Shown here in pieces: positions 1,459 through 7,337 of a stretch of 7,499 nucleotides of DNA. The stretch is from NCBI GenBank assembly GCA_016839955.1, contig JAEOTI010000139.1, positions 1 to 7,499 of the forward strand, given 5' to 3'. The DNA comes from Candidatus Hodarchaeota archaeon. Its GTDB lineage: Archaea; Asgardarchaeota; Heimdallarchaeia; Hodarchaeales; YT1-057. The position numbers and the translations under genes are program-made. The notes beneath the pieces are model-generated. The model was not told the origin of the DNA and ran no database searches. It saw only the letters and a list, made by a program, of their open reading frames with translations. Position 1 is the stretch's first letter. The number at the start of each line of letters is the position of its first letter.

Positions 1459-2688
1459 TTGAAACAGATTATGAAGATCTTAAAAACATTCAACTTTAGC
1501 AAAGAGGAAGCAGAACAGAATAAAATGATTCTCGAAATGGTTGATGAATTAGTAACAAATGAAATCATAGAAAAAAATATGGACGAGAGTTGGGATCAAG
1601 AAGGGGCTTCTTTTGATCCTGAGACTAAGAAAGTAGCTTATCCTCCCGGTATGATGGATGTTTTCAAGAAATGTCAGCAAAACGAGTTGTTTGGATTAAT
1701 TGTTCCTGAGAGATACAATGGTTTTGGATTATCATATACTCTTCATTGTGCTGTTATTGAATTAATGGCCCGTGGAGCACTTTCATTTTCAATGTTCTTT
1801 CCAAGTCAAGGCTTGAACATAGAAATTATCAAAAATTTTGGAACTGATCAGGCAAAAGAGAAGTATTTGCCTGATTTAGCAAGTGGTAAGCGAATTGGAG
1901 CCATGGCATTTTCCGAACCTGATGCAGGATCTGATATTTCTGCAATAAAAACAAAAGCAACTCGGGAAGGTGACTCATATTACCTTACTGGAAATAAGAT
2001 TTGGCTCTCTCATGGAGGTGCAGCAGGAACCTACATTGGTTTAGCAATCACTGATAAAGAGAAAGGACCAAGAGGCTTGAGCGCGTTCATCATTGATCCA
2101 GAGATCGCAAAAGAGAAACTTGAAGTGATTCGGATTGAGGAAAAAATGGGGCTTCATGGATCAATTACAGCGCAAGTAGCCCTTAATAACTGTGAAGTTC
2201 CTGCAGAAAATCTTCTTGGAAAAGAAAATGATGGTCTTCGGCTAATATTAGGTAGTTTGGCATCCAGTAGAATTGGGATTGGAGCCCAGGCAACTGGTAT
2301 AGCAGAAGCTGCTCTCCTAGAAGCAATAAATCATGCGAACCAACGAACTCAATTTGGAAAACCAATCGGTAAACATCAAGCTATCGGTTTCAAACTAGCT
2401 GATATGGCGACATCTGTTCATAACTCACGACTCCTTTACTTAAATTGTGCACAGATGAAATATAATGGTGAAGATACAAGAGTTGAATCTTCTTATGCAA
2501 AATATTATGGGACAGAAATCGCCCAACAGGTCACTTATGACGCTGTTCAAGTACATGGGGGTTATGGATATTCTAGAGAATATCGAGTGGAGAGATTATT
2601 CCGGGATGCTAGAGTATTAACTATTTACGAAGGCACTAGCGAAATGCAGAAATTAATAATTAGTAGAGCACAGTTATCTCGTGCTTAA
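1459..2688 (+). CDS. Acyl-CoA dehydrogenase (FAD-dependent)
   Basis: This is a 409-residue flavoenzyme that would oxidise an acyl-CoA to the 2,3-enoyl-CoA and pass electrons to the ETF encoded just downstream. The family signatures are clear: AFSEPDAGSD at about 150-159 in the middle domain; TQFGKPIGKHQ at 297-307; and the C-terminal signature beginning QVHGGYGYSREYRVER at 364, followed by LFRDAR. The catalytic base is retained as E391 in IYEGTSE, the position used by medium- and short-chain dehydrogenases. The protein is somewhat longer than the usual 380 or so residues because of an N-terminal stretch before the first helical domain, including ESWDQEG and VAYPPGMMDVFKK. The start is taken as TTG at 1459 on the basis of the AGGTG site; ATG at 1471 is the alternative and would remove four residues. 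Acyl-chain specificity cannot be read from the sequence. It is the first gene of a three-gene operon. Confidence 0.95.
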   Translation: MKQIMKILKTFNFSKEEAEQNKMILEMVDELVTNEIIEKNMDESWDQEGASFDPETKKVAYPPGMMDVFKKCQQNELFGLIVPERYNGFGLSYTLHCAVIELMARGALSFSMFFPSQGLNIEIIKNFGTDQAKEKYLPDLASGKRIGAMAFSEPDAGSDISAIKTKATREGDSYYLTGNKIWLSHGGAAGTYIGLAITDKEKGPRGLSAFIIDPEIAKEKLEVIRIEEKMGLHGSITAQVALNNCEVPAENLLGKENDGLRLILGSLASSRIGIGAQATGIAEAALLEAINHANQRTQFGKPIGKHQAIGFKLADMATSVHNSRLLYLNCAQMKYNGEDTRVESSYAKYYGTEIAQQVTYDAVQVHGGYGYSREYRVERLFRDARVLTIYEGTSEMQKLIISRAQLSRA

Positions 2689-3522: not shown

Positions 3523-4491
3523 ATGGCAACAATATTAGTAATTCTTGAAGTCGCAAAAGGAAAGATCGTAGGTCATTCAAAAGAATGTTTATCTGCAGTA
3601 AAAGAACTTTCAGGTCAAATGGGCTCTGCTGATATAGTTGGAGTAATGTTAGGTCATGAAATCGGAACCTTAGCAAATGAAGCTATAAAATTAGGAGTTT
3701 CTAAAGTTTATAAAATTGATTCTTCAGAGCTCAAAGGAATAAATCTCCTTATTCATGTAAGATCCATTAGTAAATTGATTAACGAAATAAATCCAGAGGT
3801 AATTATGGTCGGAGCGAGCCTATACGGTCAAGAAATGATGCCACGGTTAGCTGCACGGTTCGACACTTTTCCTATGGCTGGGCTAAAAGATATCAAAAAA
3901 GAAGGAGAGAATCTTATAGGCCAACACCCACTCTTTGAAGAGAAACTATTTGGCACAATCAAGGGAGATCTGGGTAGTACGGTTTTCATCAGTATCCTGT
4001 CTGGAAATTATTCTGAAGTAGAACTAGATGATTCTCTTTCGGGTGAAATAATTGATTATTCTCCCACAGTTGAAGATAGTGACAACAGGGAGAGTTTCGT
4101 GGAAGAACGAATTGCAGATATTAGTGTTGACATAACTAAGGCCAAATTGATCGTTTCTGGAGGTAGGGGCGTCGGATCTAAAGATAAGTTTCCAGTAATT
4201 TTTGAAGCAGCAAAAACTCTCGGGGGAGAAGTAGGAGCTAGTCGTGCAGCAGTAGATGCTGATTGGGTAGCTTATGATCATGAGGTTGGCCAAACTGGAA
4301 AAATTGTCACACCTGATTTTTATATCGCATGTGGAATTTCAGGTGCGATGCAACACCTTGTTGGCATGAGGAATGCCAAAACTATTATTGTTATCAACAC
4401 TGATGAAGAGGCTCCGATCCTAGAGGTTGCCCATTTCGCTGTAATTGGAGACCTTCATGCGGTACTTCCTGAGTTAGCAAAAAAAGCATAG
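3523..4491 (+). CDS. etfA: Electron transfer flavoprotein, alpha subunit
   Basis: This 322-residue FAD-binding partner of EtfB starts at an ATG nine bases after the etfB stop, which implies coupled expression. The N-terminal domain (about 1-195) is the ETF alpha/beta fold. The C-terminal FAD domain begins at KLIVSGGRGVG (208-218). The flavin-contact residues known from human ETF are all present with the same mutual spacing: R241 in SRAAVD, T258 in VGQTGK and H278 in GISGAMQHLVG. The ETF-alpha signature runs FYIACGISGAMQHLVGM (266-282). There is no fused ferredoxin domain, unlike some anaerobic EtfA proteins. The protein is soluble, with no signal peptide or membrane segment. As the last gene of the operon it is followed by a T-rich terminator. 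Confidence 0.96.
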   Translation: MATILVILEVAKGKIVGHSKECLSAVKELSGQMGSADIVGVMLGHEIGTLANEAIKLGVSKVYKIDSSELKGINLLIHVRSISKLINEINPEVIMVGASLYGQEMMPRLAARFDTFPMAGLKDIKKEGENLIGQHPLFEEKLFGTIKGDLGSTVFISILSGNYSEVELDDSLSGEIIDYSPTVEDSDNRESFVEERIADISVDITKAKLIVSGGRGVGSKDKFPVIFEAAKTLGGEVGASRAAVDADWVAYDHEVGQTGKIVTPDFYIACGISGAMQHLVGMRNAKTIIVINTDEEAPILEVAHFAVIGDLHAVLPELAKKA

Positions 4492-4494
4492 TTA

Positions 4495-4540
4495 GGAAAA
4501 GGGAGAGATCCTTCCTTTTTTCCTTAATTTTCTTCTTTTT
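4495..4540 (+). terminator. T-rich terminator after etfA
   Basis: Directly after the etfA stop, a weak AAGG/CCTT stem is followed by repeated T-tracts at 4516-4521, 4528-4531 and 4536-4540. This fits archaeal termination, which relies on U-rich stretches more than on strong hairpins. It fills nearly the whole 51-bp gap between the convergent genes. Confidence 0.6.
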
Positions 4541-4542
4541 AG

Positions 4543-5766
4543 TTAAATTAATTCAGCAACGATTTCAGCAATATCTTTTATTTCGATTTTTTCCTCGACA
4601 TCCAAAGTTTTTGTAGCATCAATGAAATTTAGCAAACAGAAATAACAAGCTGTTGCCATAAGATTTGCACCTACTTCAAGAGCTTGTTCAACCCTAGGAT
4701 TAGCAAATCGCATTTGGATGGGTGTATCCTGGAAAAATCTTCCTCCTCCACCCCCACAACATAAAGAAAAGTCTCGATTTCTTTTCATTTCTACAAATTG
4801 AATTCCAGGAATTGCCTGAATGATATTCCGTGGTTCATCATAGATCTTGTTATGCCGACCAAGGTAACATGGGTCTTGATAGGTGACTACTTTATCTATT
4901 TTCTTTGAAAATCTTAAAGATCCATCCTTTATTTTTTCTGCAAGAAATTCTGTGTAATGTTGAATTTTGATGTCTTCTGGTAAACCATAGAGTTTGAAAG
5001 CGTTATAAGAATGTGGAGAAGTGGTGATTATTCGGTTAATTTCCATTTTTTTCATTTTTTTCAGATTATCTTTACTTAATGCGTCAAAAAGCATCTCTTC
5101 TCCTAAAGTTTTTGCACAATTCCCACAGTCCTTTTCGTCCTTGAGAACACCCCAATCTATATCGAGATGATTGAGAATTTTTACCATGGACTTTGCTATA
5201 TTCTGTGCTCTTGGATCGTAAGCTGCTGTACATCCAACAAAGTATACAACATCAATTTTATCCTTCTTCTTTAATATGCGGACATCTAATCCTTTTGCCC
5301 AGTCCATTCTCTCTCTTTTTGGGCGCAGCCAAGGATTTCCGTTTTCAAAAAGTGAATCTAATGCATTTGTCACCGTTGTAGGAATATTTCTTCCGTCTTC
5401 AAGAGCTATAGCTCTTAGAGCCGACATAATATCCGGAATTCGAACTCCTCGAGGACATGTTTCGAGGCATTGCAAACACGTCGTACATAACCAAGTATTT
5501 TCTGATTTAGGATCAAAAAGGCCAAATTGAGCTTGCCGGATTATTCTGCGAGAATTAAATTCAATATAATCGCCCCAAGGACAGATGCCTGTACAAGTGC
5601 CACATTGGAAGCAGTAGTCTAGAGTGGCTCCCCCTGCTTCTTTAACCTTATTTGCAAATTCAGGGTTTATATTAGTGATTTTTAATGGAGTTGATTCTTC
5701 TTCTGTCAAAGAATTAACCTTCTTGACGAGTGTTTTTGGTCTTTCTCGCGTCACATTTATGTTCAT
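4543..5766 (-). CDS. HdrD/GlpC-like (Fe-S)-binding oxidoreductase with two 4Fe-4S motifs and CCG domains
   Basis: This soluble 407-residue protein resembles the HdrD/GlpC/GlcF class (COG0247 type). Two ferredoxin-type clusters are complete: C52, C55, C58, C62P and C94, C97, C100, C104P. Two CCG (cysteine-rich) domains follow. The second is intact (C300, then C336-C337-G, then C374 and C377; spacing CX35CCX36CXXC), as needed for an HdrB-type non-cubane 4Fe-4S cluster. The first is degenerate: C179 is kept, CCG reads DCG (213-215), and the usual CPHC is SPHS at 250-253. It has no transmembrane helices, so it lacks the cytochrome b-like anchor of membrane ETF:quinone Fe-S oxidoreductases. A TTG at 5826 would add 20 residues, but they overlap the likely TATA box, so the ATG at 5766 is chosen. 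It converges on the acyl-CoA dehydrogenase-ETF operon, which suggests, without proving, that it takes electrons from EtfAB and passes them to a thiol/disulfide, quinone or unknown partner. Confidence 0.9.
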   Translation of the reverse strand: MNINVTRERPKTLVKKVNSLTEEESTPLKITNINPEFANKVKEAGGATLDYCFQCGTCTGICPWGDYIEFNSRRIIRQAQFGLFDPKSENTWLCTTCLQCLETCPRGVRIPDIMSALRAIALEDGRNIPTTVTNALDSLFENGNPWLRPKRERMDWAKGLDVRILKKKDKIDVVYFVGCTAAYDPRAQNIAKSMVKILNHLDIDWGVLKDEKDCGNCAKTLGEEMLFDALSKDNLKKMKKMEINRIITTSPHSYNAFKLYGLPEDIKIQHYTEFLAEKIKDGSLRFSKKIDKVVTYQDPCYLGRHNKIYDEPRNIIQAIPGIQFVEMKRNRDFSLCCGGGGGRFFQDTPIQMRFANPRVEQALEVGANLMATACYFCLLNFIDATKTLDVEEKIEIKDIAEIVAELI

Positions 5767-5788
5767 TGATATCCAAAGGAGTATAGAG

Positions 5789-5796
5789 TAAATAAA
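5789..5796 (-). promoter_or_regulatory. Likely TATA box of the Fe-S oxidoreductase gene
   Basis: On the minus strand TTTATTTA is centred about 26-27 bases before the ATG at 5766, exactly where an archaeal TATA box would put the transcription start. The mRNA would therefore be leaderless or nearly so. GGATATC just before the ATG is at best a weak Shine-Dalgarno site, which agrees with this. Confidence 0.5.
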
Positions 5797-5838
5797 CTCT
5801 TTTCTGAGATATGGATTCTTTTTCAATTATTTAACAGT

Positions 5839-6039
5839 TTGCCAGAAGTCCCCTTGCGAAAGCTGGGGGATGAATGGTATAATTCCAGTGGCCTCCCTCA
5901 AAGAGTTATAAAGCCTGTTAGTATAGAAAAGGTGGGTATTGCTGAATGTCGTGTGAACCGACGATCCTTGCTGGAATATCATCTGGCGACGGGTGAGATG
6001 GGTGTACAAGGGTCTTCTGCGACAAACCGCCAAATGTAA
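5839..6039 (+). pseudogene. Possible C-terminal tail of a decayed TnpB reading frame
   Basis: A plus-strand frame runs through the hairpin-rich block and stops at 6037-6039, about 80 bases before the element's right end. That is where TnpB stop codons usually fall relative to the right-end hairpin. The peptide (for example IKPVSIEKVGIAECR in its middle) has the low-complexity, poorly conserved look of TnpB tails after the zinc finger. No CxxC pair, RuvC motif or good start signal is present. It may equally be a chance frame across a structured RNA, so it is recorded as a possible remnant, not a gene. Confidence 0.25.
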
Positions 6040-6119
6040 AACGAAAGTTTCTCTTTTCTTAGAGAAAAGAGTTCGGAGGACTCGCAGGAAGCTCCATCCG
6101 AAAGGGTGGGGTAGTTCAC
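5848..6119 (+). ncRNA. Putative omega-RNA-like structured RNA
   Basis: Read on the plus strand, this stretch folds into consecutive hairpins. H1 (5848-5871) has about ten pairs with one mismatch and a GAAA loop. H2 (5948-5962) is GTCG/CGAC. H3 (5963-6014) pairs GATCCTTG with CAAGGGTC and encloses CATCT/AGATG (5980-6000). H4 (6039-6050) is AAAC-GAAA-GTTT. H5 (6051-6071) is a perfect 9-bp CTCTTTTCT/AGAAAAGAG stem. H6 (6091-6112) has nine pairs including wobbles and a GAAA loop. Three of the loops are C(GAAA)G, which is a stable GNRA tetraloop only on this strand. Omega-RNAs of TnpB systems overlap the end of tnpB and finish at the right end, with the guide copied from the flank. The layout here fits, but expression and function are inference. 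Confidence 0.5.
6091..6119 (+). repeat. IS605-type right-end hairpin and terminal AGTTCAC
   Basis: GCTCCATCC (6091-6099) pairs with GGGTGGGGT (6104-6112) around a GAAA loop and is preceded by GCAGGAA. The single-stranded AGTTCAC at 6113-6119 follows. In the family this structure is bound by TnpA for strand cleavage and forms the 3' scaffold of the guide RNA. The flank from 6120 on would be the guide. Confidence 0.55.
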
Positions 6120-6152
6120 GGTTCTATGTTCAAACAAGAATCTAGTTTGAGT

Positions 6153-7337
6153 TTAGTGAAAGAACTCTCGCATTCTATCAAATGCTTTGTCAATCGTTTC
6201 TTCAGGAACACAAAATGACAATCTTAAATGTTCCTCTCCTGTAGGACCAAAAGCTATTCCAGGGGTTGTTGAAACTTTAGCTTCCATTAGAAGTTTCTTA
6301 CAAAAGGTTGTAGAATCTTTTCCTTCCTCTAAAAGAATTTTTGGAAACATTAGATAAGATCCAGTTGGTTTTTGATATTCAAAAACATCCCCCAACTCGT
6401 CTAATCGATCACACATCAAATTTCTAGCTGTTCTGTAATGCTCTCGGAACTTTTCAATACAATCTTGTGGACCTTTTAAGGCTCCTAATGCAGCATATTG
6501 TGAGACTACTGGAGCACATATCGCAAATGGAATGTGTGCTTTTGTTATTTGAGGAATTAGCTCTTCATGAGCATGCAAGTATCCGATTCGCCATCCTGTC
6601 ATGGCATATGTTTTTGTAAATGTATATGTGCTAACGACATTCTTCCTTATTTCAGGAATAGCGGCTATGCTAAAATGTTTGTGACCATCATAAGTAAAAT
6701 ATTCGTAAGCTTCATCTGTTATAATCATCAGGTCATTTTCTAAAGCAATATCTGCTAATTTCCTTAAATGTTGTTCAGGAAAGACTGTTCCCGTGGGGTT
6801 GGAAGGAGAACAGTAGAATATAGCCTTAGTTTTAGGAGTAATAGCTTTTCTAAATCCATCAAGATCTAATGCGAATCCTTGCTCTTCAATTGTAGGAACT
6901 ATGACTGGTTTTCCTGAAGCGAGTAATACTTGTTGAATATGAGTCGAATAGGTTGGAGAAGGAAATAAAACTTCGTCCCCCGGGTCAATTAATGCCAAAA
7001 CAGCAGCTGCTAAGCCTTCAACAGCACCAATTGTAACGATAATTTCTGAAGGATTTGCATTGAAGCCATTATCCCTTTTAATCTTCTTTACTATTTCTTC
7101 TCTTAGTTCTTGGAGACCTGAACTTTGAGAATATCCTCCTGTAAGACCATTTTGGATCGCAACAATTCCAGCTTCTTTGATATGATTTGGTGTGTCTGAT
7201 GTTGGTTTTGCCCAGGATAGAAAAGCTACATCCGTCATTTCCCTTGATAAACGTGTCATTTCATGGATCGCAGATTTTTTAATCTGAGCAACCCTATCAG
7301 AGCCTTTACAATTATTTGACATAATCATCTCTTCCAT
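6153..7337 (-). CDS. Class I/II pyridoxal-phosphate aminotransferase
   Basis: This 394-residue, fold-type I PLP enzyme belongs to the aspartate aminotransferase superfamily and should be cytoplasmic. Cofactor residues are in the expected order: PTYSTHIQQ around 128-136 stacking near the ring, N180 in SPSNPTG, D208 in ITDEAYEYF, Schiff-base lysine K242 in TFTKTYAMTGWRIGY and R250 in the same motif. R372 in HLRLSFC would bind the substrate carboxylate. Length and motifs are typical, with nothing missing. The amino-acid substrate (aspartate, alanine or aromatic) cannot be told from sequence alone. Three in-frame ATGs lie close together (7337, 7328, 7322). The first is used here, but ATG at 7322, preceded by GAGATGAT, is also possible. 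All lie within the end of the upstream DUF89 gene, so translation is probably coupled to it. Confidence 0.93.
   Translation of the reverse strand: MEEMIMSNNCKGSDRVAQIKKSAIHEMTRLSREMTDVAFLSWAKPTSDTPNHIKEAGIVAIQNGLTGGYSQSSGLQELREEIVKKIKRDNGFNANPSEIIVTIGAVEGLAAAVLALIDPGDEVLFPSPTYSTHIQQVLLASGKPVIVPTIEEQGFALDLDGFRKAITPKTKAIFYCSPSNPTGTVFPEQHLRKLADIALENDLMIITDEAYEYFTYDGHKHFSIAAIPEIRKNVVSTYTFTKTYAMTGWRIGYLHAHEELIPQITKAHIPFAICAPVVSQYAALGALKGPQDCIEKFREHYRTARNLMCDRLDELGDVFEYQKPTGSYLMFPKILLEEGKDSTTFCKKLLMEAKVSTTPGIAFGPTGEEHLRLSFCVPEETIDKAFDRMREFFH

Follow-up and report, generated by a model that had tools for sequence, protein, structure and literature searches.

Stand-alone omegaRNAs, lying apart from a nuclease gene, were reportedly described together with OMEGA systems by Altae-Tran and coworkers in 2021. 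The transposons closest in structure to the locus considered here are the PATEs of Haloquadratum walsbyi (PMC3119063). In the part of that account dealing with their structure, these are transposase-free elements that, like ours, have IS605-type palindromes near their termini and no terminal inverted repeats; the target oligonucleotide also lies outside the element, and some PATEs arose by internal deletion. The paper dates from 2011 and predates the omegaRNA; no such RNA is treated in the sections concerned. Among the closest described RNAs is the omegaRNA (or reRNA) of ISDra2, which, in the parts of the two accounts used here (PMC8612924, PMC10097598), overlaps both the 3′ end of tnpB and the right end of the transposon and takes its guide from the flank, the last 16 nt or so of the reRNA being flank-derived (PMC8612924).

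The element and its RNA

The window, i.e. the whole 7,499-nt stretch of DNA analysed, contains at positions 5835-6119 one discrete element without tnpA or tnpB. It is flanked by two minus-strand genes, one for an aminotransferase (6153-7337) and one for an Fe-S oxidoreductase (4543 to about 5766, the latter end being taken from the likely ATG). It is directly upstream of the oxidoreductase gene, on the opposite strand. Its features, all on the plus strand, are as follows.

5830-5834, plus: TTTAA, predicted target/TAM motif, outside the element and adjoining its left end
5835-6119, plus: whole TnpB-less element, 285 nt; its two ends can be aligned with those of both longer and shorter copies from relatives
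5840-5879, plus: left-end imperfect palindrome TGCCA...TGGTA around CCCC..GGGG, which folds; matched by eye to 15 other elements
5876-5913, plus: possible promoter stretch, weak in the window (GGTATAATT at 5876-5884, GTTATAAAG at 5905-5913)
5945-6119, plus: complete omegaRNA (reRNA) core, positions 1-137 of covariance model R2, 118.7 bits, ending in GTTCAC
5948-5962, plus: hairpin 1 (GTC/GAC); pseudoknot between its loop GTGAAC (5953-5958) and GTTCAC (6114-6119)
5963-6014, plus: hairpin 2, elongated in the window; 7/7 model pairs standard, 6/7 with double changes in relatives
6002-6111, plus: tnpB C-terminal remnants in two frames (VYKGLLRQTAKCKTKVS at 6002-6052, SEDSQEAPSERVG at 6073-6111)
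6017-6087, plus: long-range stem CTGCGA (6017-6022)/TCGCAG (6082-6087), enclosing AAAC-GAAA-GTTT (6039-6050) and a variable hairpin (6051-6071)
6091-6119, plus: right-end hairpin and transposon terminus GTAGTTCAC, the terminus being common to tnpB-bearing and TnpB-less elements
6120-6135, plus: predicted 16-nt guide in the 3′ flank, by analogy with ISDra2

A sequence-only reading had singled out this block as G/C-richer than its surroundings and as carrying three C(GAAA)G loops on one strand. Indeed, its G+C content is 0.481 against 0.373 for the remaining window, and the plus strand carries the three loops, with first bases at 5857, 6042 and 6099. The limits proposed for the block also fit, the TTTAA at 5830-5834 being followed directly by the element, and the perfect 9-bp stem described is present at 6051-6071. 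Just outside the element, CTCTTTTCTGAGA at 5797-5809 resembles one arm of this variable hairpin (6051-6063; 12/13), which may be chance. Folding of the plus strand of the block gave -102.2 kcal/mol (z -4.11; none of 200 shuffles as good), and the minus strand a z of -1.58 (18/200 shuffles as good). The minimum-free-energy fold differs from the one that relatives support, in which CTGCGA closes on TCGCAG (the long-range stem at 6017-6087). An Rfam scan of the window up to E 1 returned no match within the element; the sole match was to a microRNA model at 4479-4541 (24.8 bits, below the cut-off of 90). A plasmid search yielded only short weak pieces in 5 records.

The claim that the block encodes neither TnpB nor TnpA held as well: Pfam returned nothing up to E 1 for its two short ORFs, and all that was found were tnpB scraps of 12-17 residues. 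In tblastn searches with the relatives' TnpB proteins, these scraps showed 65-92% identity over 12-17 residues. Since two TnpB C-terminal scraps survive in different frames, the window element descends from a tnpB-bearing copy.

The RNA at 5945-6119 is a complete TnpB-type omegaRNA scaffold. Covariance model R2 was built from 46 aligned relatives, with the window left out, and comprises six helices and 34 pairs. Searched against the window up to E 1, it gave a single, full-length match (5945-6119, plus strand, 118.7 bits). All 34 stem pairs and all 6 pseudoknot pairs of the window are standard (40/40). Among the 46 relatives, 92.0% of cells hold standard pairs versus 30-45% with slid partners; since one of the 46 sequences served as the template for drawing the structure, the unslid version is favoured, above all in the share of cells paired. 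The compensatory changes anticipated in the stems were found, 22 of the 34 pairs showing double changes. The covariation score is 0.354, as opposed to at most 0.148 in slid controls, and none of 500 shuffles attained the observed value on any of five measures. Double changes affect 8/9 pairs of the right-end hairpin, and in the long-range stem a compensatory G-C to A-U change occurs in 5 of the 46 relatives. Examination of the pseudoknot, in the window and in relatives, was prompted by the part of PMC12558985 that describes archaeal omegaRNAs. In the 46 relatives the hairpin 1 loop and the 3′ end are paired in 99.6% of cells, mostly with invariant letters; as four of the six pairs never vary, those pairs say little. 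One tnpB-bearing copy carries a paired double change here (ATGGAC with GTTCAT).

The first hairpin (5840-5879) is part of the DNA left end and lies outside the omegaRNA core. Together with the right-end palindrome (6091-6112) it aligns with 15 other elements, as subterminal imperfect palindromes at both ends; no pair of inverted repeats was found within 5700-6260 at the default seed. The right end had been called IS605-type, a view supported by the terminus common to tnpB-bearing and TnpB-less elements. Of 31 elements whose left end was matched, the window's among them and not all independent, 26 have an exact TTTAA 10-13 nt before the left-end GAAG. The left cut in the window was placed by analogy, and a TTTAAC reading would shift it by one base. 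After exclusion of 3 of the 31 elements with doubtful left ends, a TATA-like box was found within 50 nt past the left end in 24 of 28, with and without TnpB, mostly at +9 to +13; mononucleotide shuffles gave a mean of 2.3 and a maximum of 8. This regularity suggests that the elements may each bring a promoter with them. In the window the box is displaced to +31, outside the usual place. Elsewhere in the window the predicted guide matches once, at 1811-1826 (minus strand) in an acyl-CoA dehydrogenase gene, with 3 mismatches and no adjoining TTTAA. In viral contigs, the predicted empty-site 15-mer had 21 exact matches, taken as chance given the short word, and the Fe-S oxidoreductase protein was not found.

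Relatives with and without tnpB

A DNA search of 227 Asgard-phylum genomes, in which the best 3 candidates per genome were scored and copy numbers are thus lower bounds, gave matches in 56 genomes (E up to 0.1). Most fell either in a block at the left end, about 5830-5879, or in a right-hand block, 6016-6119. In 15 elements examined, the two blocks frame a tnpB in 3 (L055, L058, L059) and no tnpB in 12. A model made from 21 sequences, the window included, matched 54 of the 227 genomes (best 14 candidates per genome scored, copy numbers again lower bounds). Other copies and relatives, the lack of which the sequence-only reading had listed among its refuting signs, are many. In a second archaeal phylum (398 genomes, best 8 candidates each, likewise lower bounds), 31 genomes had a match at E 0.001. 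The sole match above 40 bits among these best 8 per genome was G231:C31:1571-1689 (L237, 86 bits), a possible transfer or mis-binned contig.

The search for full-length tnpB copies sharing this 3′ end, also advised beforehand, was successful, for tnpB-bearing copies share both ends and the RNA. All six tnpB-like ORFs tested exceed the Pfam OrfB_IS605 cut-off, and 20 aligned tnpB-bearing loci have the same omegaRNA at the tnpB 3′ end, ending at the right-end terminus. One relative, L200, is a complete copy, consisting of left end, a 156-aa Y1_Tnp frame, a 437-aa tnpB frame, omegaRNA and right end. Y1 TnpA occurs in 4 of 8 genomes searched, among them G177 and G178. It was not found in G175 and G176, two small, maybe incomplete genomes that both have the TnpB-less family described below.

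Another set of loci (L116-L119, L121-L129, L132 and L133, from G056, G057 and G059-G064) has a related omegaRNA core and another right end, mostly a long hairpin and the terminus GATAGACCAT in place of GTAGTTCAC. Where upstream sequence exists, the core usually lies behind tnpB genes. This set represents the same RNA scaffold joined to different ends. Separately, G155, G156 and G102 are rich in copies whose model scores coincide, ten of those in G155 scoring 52.4 bits. Such copies often sit close to the end of a contig and likely reflect a recent expansion that breaks assemblies.

The relatives' TnpB proteins, of which 23 out of 31 were aligned, have Gly at the usual Glu position of the RuvC-II motif, which mostly reads VGDL or VGEL. 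A Glu in a DERNTSKEC stretch is invariant in 23/23 (e.g., L200:249-1559:-), and so are two Asp residues in the RuvC-I and RuvC-III motifs. TnpBs with a relocated Glu are known. Judging from the alignment, the DERNTSKEC Glu is probably the relocated catalytic residue, and its invariance in all 23 proteins speaks against a nuclease-dead partner TnpB. The L058 protein resembles the solved TnpB structures 8bf8 and 8h1j.

Copies without tnpB were surveyed in four genomes, G175-G178, where a model search (150 candidates scored) detected 48 copies. Of 42 examined, 33 had at least 1 kb of upstream sequence and could be classified: an upstream TnpB match of at least 330 residues was present in 14 and absent from 19. 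(The upstream-TnpB classification used 72 of 86 model matches, those of at least 52 bits, and left out 14 weaker ones.) Sixteen of the 19 TnpB-less copies have a recognisable left end, which L111, L176 and L184 lack. Fifteen of the 19 (15/16 with a left end) form a single family of 389-393 nt, distributed over all four genomes, with 81-96% identity over the whole length and RNA cores scoring 95-147 bits against the model. Fifteen near-alike copies in four genomes indicate that one TnpB-less element has multiplied. Other TnpB-less elements measure 301 nt (L169) and, in G053, 445, 453 and 533 nt (L054, L063 and L064); sizes were counted by script from 12 nt before the left-end GAAG, a rule that gives 287 for the window. 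In one member of this 391-nt family, L185:191-589:-, inspection by eye suggests an inversion of a few bases ahead of the terminal hairpin; the long-range stem is lost and the terminal hairpin kept. Two copies, L112 (G178) and L167 (G177), are the same insertion, with flanks 94% and 91% identical. G176 has this locus without the element, the junction being too diverged for base precision.

For the window element itself, the neighbouring aminotransferase has copies with 67-74% identity in ten regions, from nine genomes of the phylum that includes L007, a Helarchaeota bin; the window is accordingly archaeal, of Asgard type. These regions, which are not syntenic with the Fe-S gene, contain no element copy at E <0.1; the best element-like match spans 49 bases (E 0.2). 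They lack the window's other genes, and no empty site of the window element was identified among them. The best relatives of the Fe-S oxidoreductase in the phylum are 51% identical.

Upkeep of the RNA and the competing explanations

The sequence-only reading had proposed that the RNA fold was kept while the protein is gone. The first part stands, all 40 pairs being intact in the window; upkeep through use of the protein-less RNA is not established. The share of paired cells is 92.0% in 20 TnpB-less copies and 91.6% in 20 tnpB-bearing ones, with double changes at 16 and 19 pairs, respectively; much of the stem variation in the TnpB-less copies may predate tnpB loss. In the consensus of the 15-copy family, 32 of 34 pairs form and 2 do not. 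Over all pairs, this family has 21 broken, as compared to 36.9 ± 3.5 in a neutral simulation (p 0.0003), yet the signal becomes weak or absent when changes are counted once: with each distinct state taken once p is 0.048, and without the rearranged L185 it is 0.25. For stems 1-5, which are RNA-only, p is 0.042 (0.18 with each state once) and, without L185, 0.13 (0.55). The terminal hairpin gives 0.0007 (0.13 with each state once). Most of the deficit of broken pairs is owed to the terminal hairpin, a structure that TnpA would need as DNA, and pairs in the RNA-only stems of this family are not kept significantly above neutral when changes are counted once. Change rates are 0.056 at paired and 0.058 at unpaired positions. 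In the one orthologous pair (L112/L167), 2 of 130 positions differ in the RNA part against 74 of 1200 in the flanks (p 0.027), and 15 of 399 over the whole element (p 0.077 against flanks). Purifying selection for a guide function of the TnpB-less copies is suggested at best.

The family marks carried by the window element are its left end, its right end, the TTTAA on the target side and the complete omegaRNA; tnpA and nearly all of tnpB have been lost. We consider it very probable that the element is a non-autonomous, PATE-like IS200/IS605 derivative mobilised in trans. Mobilisation in trans is inferred from the ends being shared with tnpA- and tnpB-bearing relatives, and the copy L200, with its left end, tnpA, tnpB, omegaRNA and right end, favours the "trans-mobilised element" that the sequence-only reading had put first. 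The Y1 TnpA of another copy would excise and insert the element as single-stranded DNA through the two end hairpins. If transcribed, the RNA would bring along a guide derived from the 3′ flank and could join a TnpB encoded by a full-length copy at another place. That nuclease would then cleave the empty site once re-sealed (TTTAA plus flank), which would favour retention or restoration of the element. We give this second activity, guide-directed cutting of the empty site by a TnpB encoded elsewhere, a little less than an even chance. Counted against the account as a whole are the lack of a Y1 TnpA match in G175 and G176, the like change rates at paired and unpaired positions, the weak once-counted signal in the RNA-only stems, the whole-element p of 0.077 and the window's displaced TATA-like box. 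A broader extension, which strikes us as rather unlikely, is that of guide-only transposons, i.e. dispersed TnpB-less elements, each with a promoter, an omegaRNA and a locus-specific guide, sharing few TnpA/TnpB copies. If true, one nuclease would serve many guides across the chromosome, a two-tier parasitism resembling an unlinked guide array.

The element may have the same identity and be functionally dead, a product of internal IS605 deletion with a leftover RNA fold, mobile only through its DNA hairpins if at all. This possibility deserves serious thought, though we would not bet on it. The tnpB scraps in different frames agree with it, as does the fact that selection on RNA-only stems is not demonstrable in the TnpB-less family, where the terminal (DNA) hairpin carries most of the signal. 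It is opposed by the intactness of all 40 pairs in the window, pseudoknot included, by the RNA cores of 95-147 bits in a TnpB-less family that has reached 15 copies in four genomes, and by the slower change of the RNA part relative to flanks in the one orthologous pair. Exaptation by the host, as a regulatory RNA or as the guide of a nuclease-dead TnpB repressing a host gene, could be imagined from the position just upstream of the oppositely oriented Fe-S oxidoreductase gene and from the missing RuvC-II Glu in the relatives' TnpBs. We regard it as very improbable: no convincing copy occurs in the ten aminotransferase regions (67-74% identity, no synteny with the Fe-S gene); the guide's one other match in the window has 3 mismatches and no preceding TTTAA; and the Glu elsewhere and the two RuvC Asp, invariant in 23 aligned TnpBs, argue for an active nuclease. 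Nothing was found in favour of the exaptation that the sequence-only reading had entertained. Finally, GNRA-capped hairpins are common in many RNAs, so a group II intron domain, RNase P or a riboswitch might merely resemble an omegaRNA. Such an unrelated structured RNA is refuted by the 20 copies with the same RNA downstream of tnpB, and Rfam gave, up to E 1, only the sub-threshold microRNA match elsewhere in the window; we attach practically no weight to it.

Comparison with known systems

With the present case, Asgard archaea gain a well-defined family of omegaRNAs that shows covariation and a pseudoknot. Provided that the RNAs are functional, a single TnpB would guard numerous element sites in trans, which would help to explain how protein-less IS605 elements persist despite removal by single-strand excision. 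It would also document, in nature, a move from the pairing of a nuclease with a single guide towards the use of many guides by one nuclease. Among open-access full texts in PMC, no paper was found on TnpB-less omegaRNA elements in Asgard archaea.

The Sulfolobus SisTnpB1 system, in the sections of PMC10640517 that describe it, is similar in having TTTAA as its TAM, taken from the left-end flank; unlike the window element, it has its TnpB gene. The sotRNAs/omegaRNAs of Halobacterium (PMC12558985) are, in the corresponding part of their description, archaeal omegaRNAs with a right-end hairpin and a pseudoknot to a transposon-encoded motif, as here. They are described in tnpB genes, in which they differ from the window element, and the main text of that paper makes no mention of "orphan", "PATE", "without tnpB", "standalone" or "non-autonomous". 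The window element departs from the ISDra2 omegaRNA in having no tnpB and in giving no Rfam match at the thresholds used. Its difference from the PATEs, as the pertinent part of PMC3119063 presents them, is that it belongs to Asgard-type archaea and has kept an omegaRNA with covarying stems and a pseudoknot.
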